DNA of 64,000 nucleotides from Embleya scabrispora (GCF_002024165.1 NZ_MWQN01000001.1:3265365-3329364); one strand, 5' to 3'. Numbered from the stretch's first letter, positions 26,688 to 31,311 are shown. Program-made: numbers and translations. The notes: generated by a model from the sequence alone, not told the origin.

Positions 26688-26897
26688 TCACGCTCCGACG
26701 ACCTCGTAGCCCGCCTCGACGACCGCCGCACGCACCGCGTCGGGGTCCACCGGCTGCGCCGACGTCACGGTGACCAGACCCGAGGCCAGTTCGACCGCGA
26801 CATCGGTCACGCCCGCCACCTCGGAGACCTCCTCGGTGACGGAGGACACGCAGTGACCGCAGGTCATTCCACTGACGGTGAAGGTGGCGGTGCTCAT
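26688..26897 (-). CDS. copZ: Heavy-metal-associated (CopZ-like) copper chaperone
   Basis: A 69-residue ferredoxin-like single HMA domain. The metal-binding motif GMTCGHC is at residues 10-16, and the protein ends AVVEAGYEVVGA as usual. Such chaperones carry Cu(I) in the cytoplasm to an efflux ATPase or repressor. No copA or csoR gene is in the window. ATG 26897 has an AAAGGA site. A CsoR-like palindrome lies about 57 bases upstream, so copper induction is likely. Confidence 0.92.
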   Translation of the reverse strand: MSTATFTVSGMTCGHCVSSVTEEVSEVAGVTDVAVELASGLVTVTSAQPVDPDAVRAAVVEAGYEVVGA

Positions 26898-27041: not shown

Positions 27042-28004
27042 TCAGTCCGTCAACCGCGCCGACCGCACCGGCTCGCCCACCGGCCGCCCCACCCGGAACA
27101 CCGCCAACGGCACCGCCCCCACCCGACCCGCCACCTCCTCCGCCGTCCGCGCGCAGTCGATCAGCTGGCTGAGCGGATGCGTCGCGTAGCCGTGCCGGGC
27201 CAACGTCAACCAACACCGGAACAACCCCCGCCCCGGCTCCAGCAGTTCGGCCGCGTCCCCGGGCGCGGCCGGCGCGGTCGCCACCAGCACACTCCCGTCG
27301 TAGCGCAACACCCCCCGCGAGGAAGCCGCCAGCACCCGTGCCAGCCCGACCGGACGCAACACCCGATACACCCCCGGCCGCAACACCGCGTGCAGCGCCC
27401 GCGCCTCCACCCCGGACAACGCCAACGCCCGCCCGGTCAACCCGTCCCGCGCCGACTCCCGCTCCGCCCGCAACCGCAACCACCGGCGCAACTCGCCGAC
27501 CAGCGCCGGATCCCCGAACATCCACCGATCCGCCTCGTCGAGCAGCGGCGCCAGTTCCCGCGTCCCACCCCGCCACAGACCCGCCGACCCGGCGAACGCG
27601 TCTCCCGCCTCCGCGAACACCGCGTCCGGCAACGCCCCCGGCTCGTACGCCCCCCGCGCACTGCGCCGCCCGGTCAAGTCCGCCGCCGTGAACGGCGTGC
27701 GATAACACTCGTCCGCCCGGACGAACCGGGCCACCATTCCCCGCCCACGCTCCGCCGCCCCCGCGTACTCCACCCGCAACGGCACCCCCAGCGCCGCCGA
27801 GGCGATCGAGAACGCCTCCACGAACGCCCCCAGCCCCAGGAACAGGTCCCGCCGCCCGGGATCACCGACCGGCAACGCCCGCGCCGGATCCCAGGACAAC
27901 GCGTAGCCCAGAGCGCCACTCGGCGCCAGCGTCCACGGCTGGGTGTTGTGCGCACTCGGCGCCCGCCCGGCCAGCCGGAGCAGATCCGCGAGTTCGGTGC
28001 TCAT
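27042..28004 (-). CDS. Nitroreductase-family (Acg-type) flavoprotein
   Basis: A 320-residue protein of the two-module nitroreductase type related to mycobacterial Acg. The FMN-binding start LLRLAGRAPSAHNTQPWTL is at residues 8-26, and a second half-module includes YATHPLSQLIDCARTAEEV near residue 285. Acg-type proteins bind FMN but often lack classical reductase activity, so catalysis is not assured. It is the last gene of the four-gene operon; its ATG overlaps the stop of the gene before it (ATGA, 28001-28004), showing translational coupling. Confidence 0.85.
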   Translation of the reverse strand: MSTELADLLRLAGRAPSAHNTQPWTLAPSGALGYALSWDPARALPVGDPGRRDLFLGLGAFVEAFSIASAALGVPLRVEYAGAAERGRGMVARFVRADECYRTPFTAADLTGRRSARGAYEPGALPDAVFAEAGDAFAGSAGLWRGGTRELAPLLDEADRWMFGDPALVGELRRWLRLRAERESARDGLTGRALALSGVEARALHAVLRPGVYRVLRPVGLARVLAASSRGVLRYDGSVLVATAPAAPGDAAELLEPGRGLFRCWLTLARHGYATHPLSQLIDCARTAEEVAGRVGAVPLAVFRVGRPVGEPVRSARLTD

Positions 28005-29113
28005 CGGGCACTCCCGACCGGCTTCGTGTAGAAGGTGTGCCCGTGCAACTCCCGCCCGCCGATCCGGCGGTACTGCGCCGCCGACGCCTTGTTGTCGTCC
28101 TCGACCCATGTGCTGCGCAACGTGTCGTAGCCGCCCGCCCGCAGCGCCCGATACTGCTCCCGTGCGAGCAGGGTGAGATAGCCGCGCCCCTGGGCCCCGG
28201 GCACCGTGCCCTTGATGATCAACACCGCCTCCCGGCGATAGCGCCCCCGCGTCGCCAGCAGCCGCACCTGGTTGCCCACGTGCAGATCGCCGCGGATCCG
28301 GATCAAGAACTCCGAGATGTCCGGCACCGCGAGGGTGAACGCGACCGGCTCGCCGGCCCGCTCCAGCCACAACAGCAGCGACTCGTCCAGCAGATACGCC
28401 AAGCCCTCGGTCTGCGCCCGCAGTTCGTCCAGCGCGATCGGCGTGTAGTAGCCCAACTGCGCGAAACTCGCGTTCAACATCGTGTGCAGGATCGGCAGTT
28501 GCTCGGCCAACCGACGCCGAGAACCGCGCCGGATCACCAGGTGCTCGGCGGCGATCCGCGCGTCGTCAAAGACATAGGTCGCCGCCGGATCGTCCACCCG
28601 CTGGGCCAACCCCGGACAGATCCACGTCGACGCCGAGAACCGCCGAGCGAACCCGGCCCGTTCGTAGGTCTCCGGATACCGCGCCGGATTCCACGCCGAG
28701 TCCACGAAGCCGCGCTCGGTGAACCCCGACGTGATCACCCCGCCGGTCTGGTTCGGCAACAGCGCCACCGGCCCGAACAGGCTCTTTGCCCCCGCCCGCA
28801 CGGCCCGCTCCTCGATCAGCTCCACCAGCCGGGCGAACACCGCCGGGTCCTCGGCGAACTCGGTGAGCCCGAACAGCTGATGCCGCCCGCCCACCTTGGC
28901 GTCGAACCGCGCCTCGGTGTGCGTACAGGTGCGCCCCACCGCCCGCCCGGCCCGATCGCGCACCAGATACAGCTCGATCCCCGCCCGCGCCCACCGCCGC
29001 ACCTGATCGCGCAGCACCGGCACATAGCGATCCCTCGGGTGCAGCCGCAGCGGCAACGCGCAGAAGTCGCGCAGCGCGCGCCGGGACCCCACCCGCTCCA
29101 CGGTGAGCGTCAC
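28001..29113 (-). CDS. GNAT-like acyltransferase-fold protein (YghO-type), unknown substrate
   Basis: A 370-residue protein. The C-terminal half looks like a GNAT fold, with the acetyl-CoA-loop-like GTVPGAQGRGYLTLLAREQYRAL and the closing YRRIGGRELHGHTFYTKPV. The N-terminal half has the stretch LLPNQTGGVITSGF seen in YghO-type proteins. The start is GTG 29113, whose GTGA overlaps the preceding stop. The upstream partner is an adenylate-forming enzyme and the downstream one a flavoprotein, so it may transfer an activated acyl group. The family is only distantly recognised. Confidence 0.65.
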   Translation of the reverse strand: MTLTVERVGSRRALRDFCALPLRLHPRDRYVPVLRDQVRRWARAGIELYLVRDRAGRAVGRTCTHTEARFDAKVGGRHQLFGLTEFAEDPAVFARLVELIEERAVRAGAKSLFGPVALLPNQTGGVITSGFTERGFVDSAWNPARYPETYERAGFARRFSASTWICPGLAQRVDDPAATYVFDDARIAAEHLVIRRGSRRRLAEQLPILHTMLNASFAQLGYYTPIALDELRAQTEGLAYLLDESLLLWLERAGEPVAFTLAVPDISEFLIRIRGDLHVGNQVRLLATRGRYRREAVLIIKGTVPGAQGRGYLTLLAREQYRALRAGGYDTLRSTWVEDDNKASAAQYRRIGGRELHGHTFYTKPVGSAR

Positions 29114-29568
29114 GACCTCTTCGCCTTCCGGTGCACCGGCGGGCCGCTCTCCTCGCGGCCGATCGGGGTGAACTCCTCGATGTGCGCCATCTCGCGCCCC
29201 TCGGCCCGCCACTCGCCGTTGCTGTACCCGCCGGGCTGCGCGTCGAAGATCCGGATGAACCCCGCCGTGCCGTTGCGATCGCCCCGGTCGGTCATCCAGC
29301 ACATCAGATCGCGGTGCGCGCTCGTACGGGCGAACCGCATCAGCGCCTCACGGTCGGCGAACACCGCGATGGTGCCCAGCGTGAACGGCCCCTGCAGGTA
29401 GACCTTGTGCCAGCGGTAGCCGTCCATGCGCTTCATCGTGCGCACCATCCGCAACCACGGCCGGGCCAGCGAGAGCAGCGAACGCGGACCGCTGTAGTGC
29501 GTGGCGCCGATGAACATCGCCTCGCCCCGCGCCTGCGGCGGCGCCGCCGAGAAATCGGTGGTCCTCAT
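29110..29568 (-). CDS. Small conserved-looking protein of unknown function in the ANL operon
   Basis: A 152-residue protein with no signal or membrane segment. Tryptophans and basic residues are spread along it (PWLRMVRTMKRMDGYRWHKVY), followed by GPFTLGTIAVFADREALMRFARTSAHRDLMCW. The layout strand, long helix, strand, helix resembles the dimeric alpha/beta-barrel proteins (DUF3291 or spheroidene-monooxygenase-like), but I cannot assign it. ATG 29568 overlaps the ligase stop (ATGA) and its own stop overlaps the next start (GTGA), so it is made together with its neighbours. Confidence 0.6.
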   Translation of the reverse strand: MRTTDFSAAPPQARGEAMFIGATHYSGPRSLLSLARPWLRMVRTMKRMDGYRWHKVYLQGPFTLGTIAVFADREALMRFARTSAHRDLMCWMTDRGDRNGTAGFIRIFDAQPGGYSNGEWRAEGREMAHIEEFTPIGREESGPPVHRKAKRS

Positions 29569-31163
29569 CGCTGCTCCCCTTCCACGGATCCCACGGATCC
29601 CACGGATCCCACGGGTCCCGCCGATTCCGCGGGCTTGACGAGATAGACGTTCTTGATCCGGGTGGTGCCGCGCAGGAACGGCCCGGTCCGGAAGTCGTGC
29701 ACCAGCACCCGTACATCGGCCGCCGTCGGGTCCTCCGCGAGCGACTGCGCGAAGTCCCGGCTGACCCGGGCCAGATGCCGCACCACACCCTCCCGGCAGA
29801 CCAGGGCGAGCTTGTCCCGATCCGCCTCGTCCAGCGAGGTCCCGTCGCGCAGCTGCAGGTTGACCACCGGACGGCTCTCCAGGTCGGCGTACTCGTCGAC
29901 GGTCAGGCAGAACCCCTCCAGGTGCGCCGCCATCGGGTTGTCCCGGTAGAGCCCGTACTCGACGTCCTGCGGATAGATGTTCGCGCCCATGTAGGAGATC
30001 GTGCTGTCCTTGCGGCCGAACAGCAGCAGCAGCGGCAGCCGCATGCCCTCCACCCGCGCCGCGCGCTCCCAGTCGGCCCACGCCTCGCGGTCCGGCCGGA
30101 TCATCTCCTCGACCTCCGGGAAGGTCAGCAGCCGACCCTCGTCGCCGATGTTGTAGCGCACCTTCGGACTCATCACCGCGGTCGAGTTGATCGTGCAGAT
30201 CACCTCGTCCTCGGCGTTGGTCTCCAGGTAGGTCTCCAGCGGGTTGTACTGGAACACCATCGGCACCCGGCCCTCGTCCGGCCCCAGCATCCGGGTGCGC
30301 AGCCGCTCGTCGGTCAGCAGCCGCTTGCGCAGCCACACCGTCGCGTCGCTCTCGCCGGCCATCCCTATCGTCAGGTCGGAGGCGCCGTAGCCGGAGCGCA
30401 CCTTGACGAAGCGCTCCTCCAGGTAGTCGCGCAGCGCCTCGGTCATGCCCTCGCCGCCGACGAAGCCGTACATCCGGTGCCGGGTCCAGTCGAAGCCGTC
30501 CGCGTCCAGCCGGTCGCGCAGGTGCTTGAGGAACGGCGGGTACGCGGTGACCAGGTAGGTGAAGCGCGGCCCGAAGTGGCGCAGCGTGTCCACGATCTTG
30601 TCGATGTCGGGGCCGGTGTTCTTCACCATCGCCACGCGCGCCATCGCGATACCGGTGTTGGTGCCGGTCGCCCACGCGCCCATCGAGTAGGCGTTGATCA
30701 CGAACAGCTTGCGCCGGGGGAAGACCATCGACGTGTAGCCGGCCACGTTGCGGTGCACCGACTTGAGTTCGCGGCGCGAGCGCAGCCAGTTGTGCGGCGT
30801 GCCGGAGGAGCCGGACGACTCGTCCACCACGGTCCCGGCCACCTCCAGGGCGCCCAGCCAACAGCGGCTGTCCTCGGGATACGCCTTGACGTAGTTCTCC
30901 TTGGACGTCTCCGGGTACGACGCGAGGTCGAACCAGCGGAAGCGCCACCGGTGCCGGCGCAGGAAGTCGCGGTAGGCGGGCACATCGAGCGCGGCGAACT
31001 GGCAGGTCATCCACGCGTGTCGACGGGCGAACCGCTGCATCCACGGCCGATAGTGGGTGGCCGTCCAGCGCCACACCACGGGATGGACCCGGTAGAGCTG
31101 ATACAGCCCGGTCAGCGCGAAGCTGACCACGCGCAGCAACCACTGTCGGATGAATCTGGCCAT
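29565..31163 (-). CDS. ANL-superfamily adenylate-forming enzyme (PaaK/CapK-like)
   Basis: A 532-residue protein of the phenylacetate-CoA-ligase/coenzyme-F390-synthetase branch. The ATP-phosphate loop is DESSGSSGTPHNWLRS (about residues 113-128). The aromatic adenylation motif is SGYGASDLTIG, the hinge-region YNIGDEGRLLTFPE follows, and the C-terminal domain has GRKDSTISYMGANIYPQDVE. It would activate a carboxylate with ATP; the acceptor (CoA, amine or carrier) is unknown. It is the first gene of a four-gene operon. The C-terminus ends in GSVGSVGSVEGEQR, encoded by a 9-base tandem repeat. A palindromic operator lies 75-101 bases upstream. Confidence 0.85.
   Translation of the reverse strand: MARFIRQWLLRVVSFALTGLYQLYRVHPVVWRWTATHYRPWMQRFARRHAWMTCQFAALDVPAYRDFLRRHRWRFRWFDLASYPETSKENYVKAYPEDSRCWLGALEVAGTVVDESSGSSGTPHNWLRSRRELKSVHRNVAGYTSMVFPRRKLFVINAYSMGAWATGTNTGIAMARVAMVKNTGPDIDKIVDTLRHFGPRFTYLVTAYPPFLKHLRDRLDADGFDWTRHRMYGFVGGEGMTEALRDYLEERFVKVRSGYGASDLTIGMAGESDATVWLRKRLLTDERLRTRMLGPDEGRVPMVFQYNPLETYLETNAEDEVICTINSTAVMSPKVRYNIGDEGRLLTFPEVEEMIRPDREAWADWERAARVEGMRLPLLLLFGRKDSTISYMGANIYPQDVEYGLYRDNPMAAHLEGFCLTVDEYADLESRPVVNLQLRDGTSLDEADRDKLALVCREGVVRHLARVSRDFAQSLAEDPTAADVRVLVHDFRTGPFLRGTTRIKNVYLVKPAESAGPVGSVGSVGSVEGEQR
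29582..29617 (-). repeat. 9-base tandem repeat at the end of the ANL gene
   Basis: Three copies of CCACGGATC and a fourth, CCACGGGTC, lie end to end. They encode the GSV repeats near the C-terminus, so copy number can change without shifting the frame. Confidence 0.9.
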
Positions 31164-31237: not shown

Positions 31238-31264
31238 ATGAGTACCACTACTCATTCGGTACTC
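31238..31264 (-). promoter_or_regulatory. Operator-like nested palindromes upstream of the ANL operon
   Basis: ATGAGTA-CCAC-TACTCAT (31238-31255) is a perfect palindrome. A second, GAGTACC-N11-GGTACTC (31240-31264), shares its left arm, so there are three GAGTA-type half-sites in 27 bases. The block lies between the rplI terminator and the first gene of the operon. TGAGTA/TACTCA half-sites are common in TetR- and GntR-type operators. Confidence 0.55.
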
Positions 31265-31272
31265 GGAAAACG

Positions 31273-31311
31273 CCGAACGGCCCGACCCCGCAAGGGGGTC
31301 GGGCCGTTCGG
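31273..31311 (-). terminator. Terminator of the rpsF-ssb-rpsR-rplI operon
   Basis: A GC-rich hairpin with the 17-base perfect arm CCGAACGGCCCGACCCC starts 10 bases after the rplI stop. On the minus strand it is followed by CGTTTTC. Confidence 0.9.

Follow-up and report, generated by a model that had tools for sequence, protein, structure and literature searches.

A conserved ANL, ABM, GNAT and flavoprotein gene cassette of actinobacteria, with a predicted third lineage of flavin-dependent oxidases

The described pathways closest to the genes considered here are those of the oxazolones, lipids made by tuberculosis bacteria, and of the N-acyl dehydrotyrosines, in which a flavoprotein of the nitroreductase superfamily acts as a desaturase. 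TyzC desaturates N-acyl-tyrosine (PMC10404671), and both TyzC and TrzS act as desaturases of N-acyl amino acids in clusters that also encode an N-acyltransferase and the adenylating enzyme ThiF (PMC10404671, PMC12856293). Grigg et al. defined two groups of flavin-dependent oxidases, FDO-A and FDO-B, and left the function of FDO-B open; no comparable operon has been described for the Acg genes of M. tuberculosis (PMC10404671). The role of nitroreductase-superfamily flavoproteins outside oxazolone clusters, including that of tuberculosis Acg, is an open question. The present analysis concerns a cassette of four genes in Embleya scabrispora, located in a stretch of 64,000 nucleotides (NZ_MWQN01000001.1:3265365-3329364, hereafter the window) and encoding an ANL adenylating enzyme, a protein of the ABM (dimeric alpha/beta barrel) fold, a tandem-GNAT acyltransferase and a flavin mononucleotide (FMN) flavoprotein (Table 1).

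The four genes are conserved as a unit, parts of which are fused in some lineages. When 84,980 species were scanned, 326 stretches proved to encode a relative of the ANL protein; the best 80 were fetched and examined, with genes called by a codon-model caller. All four genes are present in 78 of these 80 loci, and in 77 their order is unchanged over a span of up to 7 kb; the ANL gene of Nonomuraea sediminis lies 5 kb from the other three. The carriers represent no fewer than 11 families (Streptomycetaceae, Micromonosporaceae, Microbacteriaceae, Brevibacteriaceae, Cellulomonadaceae, Ornithinimicrobiaceae, Intrasporangiaceae, Streptosporangiaceae, Micrococcaceae, Propionibacteriaceae and Sanguibacteraceae). 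The ABM and GNAT genes are fused in one frame in seven loci from Pseudoclavibacter and Microbacterium, and the GNAT and flavoprotein genes in ten loci from Brevibacterium, Serinicoccus, Nesterenkonia and Ornithinimicrobium. The flanking genes vary by lineage, and no constant fifth gene family was found beside the cassettes of relatives. As the 80 loci are best hits, samples drawn independently of the cassette were also examined. At class level, the full set accompanies all four ANL matches above 700 bits (the genome of the window, G346, G623 and G601); at phylum level, it accompanies all three matches above 500 bits, and the only three strong GNAT matches (>440 bits, the next being 175) fall in the same three genomes. 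Furthermore, the distances between the proteins correlate (r 0.51-0.85, with none of 2000 permutations as high), a correlation for which shared species ancestry would suffice. A set confined to this strain, which would have undermined the initial annotation, is thus clearly excluded by the co-occurrence, and a strain-specific accident with it. Carriage as phage or plasmid cargo was rejected too: no relative occurs in viral contigs, and the three plasmid records all exceed 1 Mb.

The four minus-strand reading frames lie exactly where they were first placed, with four-base overlaps of ATGA (29565-29568, ANL/ABM), GTGA (29110-29113, ABM/GNAT) and ATGA (28001-28004, GNAT/flavoprotein). Among the 80 related loci, the successive junctions are within 30 nt on either side in 50/80, 65/71 and 62/68 unfused cases. 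Because close junctions recur in this way, the overlaps represent more than chance. They indicate likely translational coupling and not, as had been proposed, production of the proteins in fixed proportion.

The flavoprotein, described at first as Acg-type, is instead placed by its sequence in a third lineage beside FDO-A and FDO-B, sister to the known desaturases and to Acg. It matches MsAcg (PDB 2ymv) at 1.4e-9 and scores 147 bits against the Acg family NF047509, under the cut-off of 199. Trees were built from cassette flavoproteins, ThiF-fused proteins (FDO-A, with the oxazolone desaturases TrzS and TyzC) and Acg/Rv3131 proteins (FDO-B). The cassette proteins all lie on one side of a single branch, whose Shimodaira-Hasegawa-like approximate likelihood ratio support (84-85) is not conclusive by itself; the approximately unbiased (AU) test rejects one clade joining them with FDO-B (p 0.0016), as well as one joining them with FDO-A (p 0.0036). 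Arg177 aligns with Arg525, Arg537 and Arg540 of three TrzS-type fusions, the numbering being that of the fusions and not of M. smegmatis TrzS. It is invariant in the 32 cassette proteins sampled and present in two of seven FDO-B proteins. The R540A variant of TrzS is deficient in desaturation (PMC12856293).

The ANL protein carries the adenylation motifs of its superfamily and the C-terminal lysine (K504): the P-loop SSGSSGTP, YGASD, GR.D and Lys504 are kept even in relatives at 34-39% identity. It resembles phenylacetate-CoA ligases of the PaaK type, with a profile match to PDB 2y4o at E=2e-7. However, its score against TIGR02155 (PaaK) is 33.6 bits (E=1.5e-8) for an equivalog cut-off of 646, and its identity with PaaK-like paralogues is about 25-28%. 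Judging from these comparisons, it is PaaK-like yet distant from every curated family. The gene is single copy, with one match in its own genome, and the closest named locus is that of E. hyalina (97% identical). Family f84 also yielded a second group of ANL proteins (141-181 bits), which has no recognised flavoprotein alongside and is something else.

The 152-aa protein, left as unknown in the initial annotation, is predicted to have the ABM fold. Whereas sequence searches of the PDB found nothing useful, 37 of 39 orthologues match Monooxy_af470-like (best 1.3e-5), and the AlphaFold model (predicted local distance difference test, pLDDT, 74; core mostly 85-93) has a ferredoxin-like dimeric-barrel fold matching SnoaB, LsrG and YgiN, with Z scores that reach 13.3 across about 95 residues. 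Among the orthologues, His85 is invariant and Trp53-His54 nearly so. A second, diverged ABM-like stretch occurs in some Microbacteriaceae and in Serinicoccus, where it precedes the GNAT gene or is fused to it (L123 11635-12414; L144 11861-14470).

The designation of the third protein as GNAT-like agrees with its predicted structure, a tandem-GNAT fold with an intact coenzyme A (CoA) loop. The model (pLDDT 94.5) matches MAB_4324 (7q3a, Z 24.8), the mycothiol synthase MshD (Z 21.9) and N-myristoyltransferases (NMT, Z about 16.6). The C-terminal half retains the Q/RxxGxG/A loop as Q308-G309-x-G311, in which Q308, G309 and G311 are nearly invariant. The FeeM-like fold is absent among the listed structural matches, which does not exclude it.

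What the cassette makes can be proposed by analogy. Our reading, tentative and held at slightly less than an even chance, is a self-contained four-enzyme route to a small acylated amide lipid, that is to say a ThiF-less variant of the oxazolone and N-acyl-dehydroamino-acid pathways. The ANL enzyme would activate a fatty or aryl carboxylate to an acyl-CoA, or may take over the part of ThiF in cyclisation, and the GNAT protein would move the acyl group onto an amine (an amino acid or similar) to give an amide. The flavoprotein may then desaturate the amide with O2, and the ABM protein may oxygenate or cyclise the product. The order of activation, transfer and redox modification first suggested for this operon suits the protein types and has the oxazolone precedent, the chemistry itself being drawn by analogy. 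The conservation of the four genes as one unit, the invariant Arg177 and a relative (L070) with ANL, ThiF and flavoprotein genes in one operon speak for the proposal.

Several observations weigh against this proposal. There is no ThiF gene in the operon, and among the relatives only one distant locus (L070) has one. As regards the N-acyltransferase partner of the oxazolone pathway, the GNAT fold is present in the predicted structure, but the protein has the tandem architecture of MshD and NMT, unlike TyzA, which is FeeM-like. The equivalence of Arg177 to R540 is approximate, given the fusion numbering, and Gln651, the other residue tested in TrzS, has no reliable mapping: the aligned position 280 is mostly Q or E in cassette proteins and P in FDO-A. 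ABM folds also serve cyclases, lyases and heme oxygenases. Lastly, no GNAT gene was found in two of the 80 loci, both from Streptacidiphilus, and distant ANL-flavoprotein pairs exist without GNAT and ABM genes, for example in Gemmatirosa, from another phylum.

Alternatively, the target might be a membrane lipid, quinone or cofactor that the cell already has: the ANL and GNAT proteins would acylate it and the oxidative pair would alter the acyl chain or the ring, no free amide natural product being made. This would fit the ANL N-terminus, which by eye is hydrophobic or amphipathic in close relatives, the N-myristoyltransferases among the GNAT structural matches, the lack of a constant transporter or resistance gene beside the cassette and the suggestion by Grigg et al. 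that lipids are what FDO-B enzymes act upon during stress (PMC10404671). We nevertheless consider it rather unlikely, as MshD-like acceptors and the known FDO partners favour small amines and the neighbourhood holds no fixed lipid-synthesis gene.

The cassette could also be a true oxazolone pathway. In that case, the ANL enzyme would simply stand in for ThiF, adenylating and cyclising an N-acyl amino acid. The same three kinds of activity are indeed present, adenylation is the chemistry that ThiF supplies, and L070 combines ANL, ThiF and flavoprotein genes. Such a pathway seems improbable, since the flavoprotein falls outside FDO-A, reported oxazolone clusters use ThiF and the ABM protein has no place in the known scheme. 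Membership of the oxazolone family is not claimed, because the operon lacks ThiF and its flavoprotein, by sequence, is not an FDO-A protein. The domain names (PaaK-like ligase, nitroreductase, ABM, GNAT) suggest a role in breaking down or detoxifying aromatic acids or nitro compounds, the four enzymes inactivating or degrading a xenobiotic. This is slightly more improbable still, given that no constant ring-opening, thioesterase, transporter or regulator gene accompanies the cassette, that the nitroreductases of FDO type have, where characterised, proved to be O2-dependent desaturases (PMC10404671, PMC12856293) and that the strict four-gene order and the fusions suggest a synthetic relay. Carotenoid, phenazine and RiPP (ribosomally synthesised and post-translationally modified peptide) clusters were set aside, there being no constant extra gene beside the cassette.

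Table 1. Features of the cassette and of its upstream region (positions in the window)
Feature	Position	Strand	Size	Basis or remark
ANL adenylating enzyme, PaaK/phenylacetate-CoA-ligase-like	29565-31163	-	532 aa	TIGR02155, PDB 2y4o profile match, ANL motifs
ABM-fold (dimeric alpha/beta barrel) protein	29110-29568	-	152 aa	Monooxy_af470-like, AlphaFold matches
Tandem-GNAT acyltransferase	28001-29113	-	370 aa	GTG start; AlphaFold matches, conservation
FMN nitroreductase-superfamily flavoprotein (flavin-dependent oxidase type)	27042-28004	-	320 aa	NF047509, PDB 2ymv, trees and AU tests
Palindrome ATGAGTAGTGGTACTCAT ahead of the ANL gene, candidate operator or promoter	31238-31255	-		Conserved in Embleya, relaxed in Streptomyces
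rplI terminator hairpin	31273-31311	-	17-bp stem	64-nt fold -41.4 kcal/mol, z -6.0

Upstream of the cassette, the strong terminator that had been noticed corresponds to a hairpin 11 nt past rplI. The operator attributed to the operon also has a candidate, a perfect palindrome with arms ATGAGTA and TACTCAT around GTGG, in the stretch that separates the end of rplI from the ANL gene. The pattern TGAGTA-N4-TACTCA occurs in only three places in the 11-Mb genome, and the reversed-pattern control in none. The palindrome is conserved among Embleya, and a relaxed motif, TGAGTAN5RCNCAT, precedes the ANL gene in Streptomycetaceae cassettes at the rplI site, including a decayed one. A sigma-70 promoter scan found no promoter. 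The second genomic copy lies between lon and the gene of a small membrane protein, the third downstream of an acyl-CoA carboxylase gene, before maf (L253/L254 ~1501-1516). From the shared pattern, it is possible that one regulator serves all three sites.

The operon was said to sit between MATE and rplI as an insertion. The rplI side of this description stands; on the other side, a gene for a CopZ-like metal-binding protein (26688-26897) intervenes before MATE. A sister genus (L250) has copZ and a gene resembling those of P-type ATPases at this site, where the cassette is missing. Within the Streptomycetaceae, Embleya and several Streptomyces carry the cassette between rplI and MATE-dnaB, and MATE directly adjoins rplI in 20 of the 30 genomes of the family inspected. 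Decayed copies occupy the same site elsewhere: a broken ANL gene alone, with the motif upstream (L060), and a flavoprotein gene alone, whose product falls inside the cassette clade (L248). The AU test marginally rejects the hypothesis that the cassette arose once in the Streptomycetaceae (p 0.036), so that the data neither establish a single insertion at rplI nor exclude it. The insertion is nevertheless doubtful: because intact and decayed copies share the rplI-MATE site, old residence with losses appears at least as likely, and the cassette is probably an old resident that was often lost. In another Streptomycetaceae genome, a C-terminal ANL fragment lies beside methylmalonyl-CoA mutase genes with an operator-like motif about 100 bp upstream (L071 9960-10289), a decayed copy at a different site.

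Other arrangements involve some of the same genes. As distant ANL relatives are paired only with a flavoprotein, the ANL-flavoprotein pair is probably the older core. The pair of Gemmatirosa (Gemmatimonadota) is carried by a megaplasmid (L212 6601-9236), and its flavoprotein starts with a twin-arginine-like signal. Three other distant pairs (L064, L065 and L066) adjoin a two-component system, a situation that recalls the Acg genes under DosRS; the flavoprotein gene of L066 overlaps with one for an acyltransferase-3. In L070 (10035-13641, Streptomycetaceae), the ANL, ThiF and flavoprotein genes overlap in one operon, which from its gene content is a split oxazolone-like cluster with an added ANL; two adenylating enzymes are thus able to coexist in one cluster. 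Some Microbacteriaceae (L118, L123) have a gene for an alpha/beta hydrolase (Abhydrolase_3) that overlaps the stop of the flavoprotein gene, possibly a lineage-specific fifth gene.

The initial annotation knew of no described pathway with this set of genes, a statement that held up: when the open literature was searched by the names of domains and families, no paper on the ANL-ABM-GNAT-flavoprotein set turned up, subscription papers being largely outside the reach of these searches. The chances seem even that the cassette represents an undescribed, widespread actinobacterial pathway with a new functional flavoprotein lineage, whose product would be a small lipid or signal of a new class, both acylated and oxidised. 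Since this sister lineage has three fixed partner enzymes, its substrate could be prepared in vitro from its own operon, and the cassette occurs in tractable genera (Micromonospora, Streptomyces, Brevibacterium and Microbacterium). It has no gene for a non-ribosomal peptide synthetase or polyketide synthase, so that rule-based cluster finders may overlook it.

Among known systems, PaaK-type ligases (PDB 2y4o) and F390 synthetase share the ANL motifs with the first enzyme, which differs from them in falling far under the family cut-offs and in its gene context. In the same way, the Acg/Rv3131 FMN oxidoreductases (NF047509, PDB 2ymv) share the superfamily and the FMN motif APSxHNxQPW with the cassette flavoprotein, which lies below their cut-off and in a separate clade. 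The clusters for the N-acyl dehydrotyrosines stieleriacine, thalassotalic acid and kyonggic acid (PMC12479983) also combine an acyltransferase, a nitroreductase-family desaturase and an adenylyltransferase; theirs are an N-acyl amino acid synthase and ThiF, in other phyla, and no ANL or ABM protein is reported. TyzABC, TrzAS and OxzAB (PMC10404671, PMC12856293) likewise cluster an acyltransferase, an adenylating enzyme and a nitroreductase-superfamily flavoprotein, with fusions, and the cassette flavoprotein keeps an arginine that aligns at or near the one required for desaturation in TrzS. The cassette differs from them by the absence of ThiF, in place of which it has ANL and ABM proteins, by its tandem GNAT and by a flavoprotein that lies outside FDO-A.

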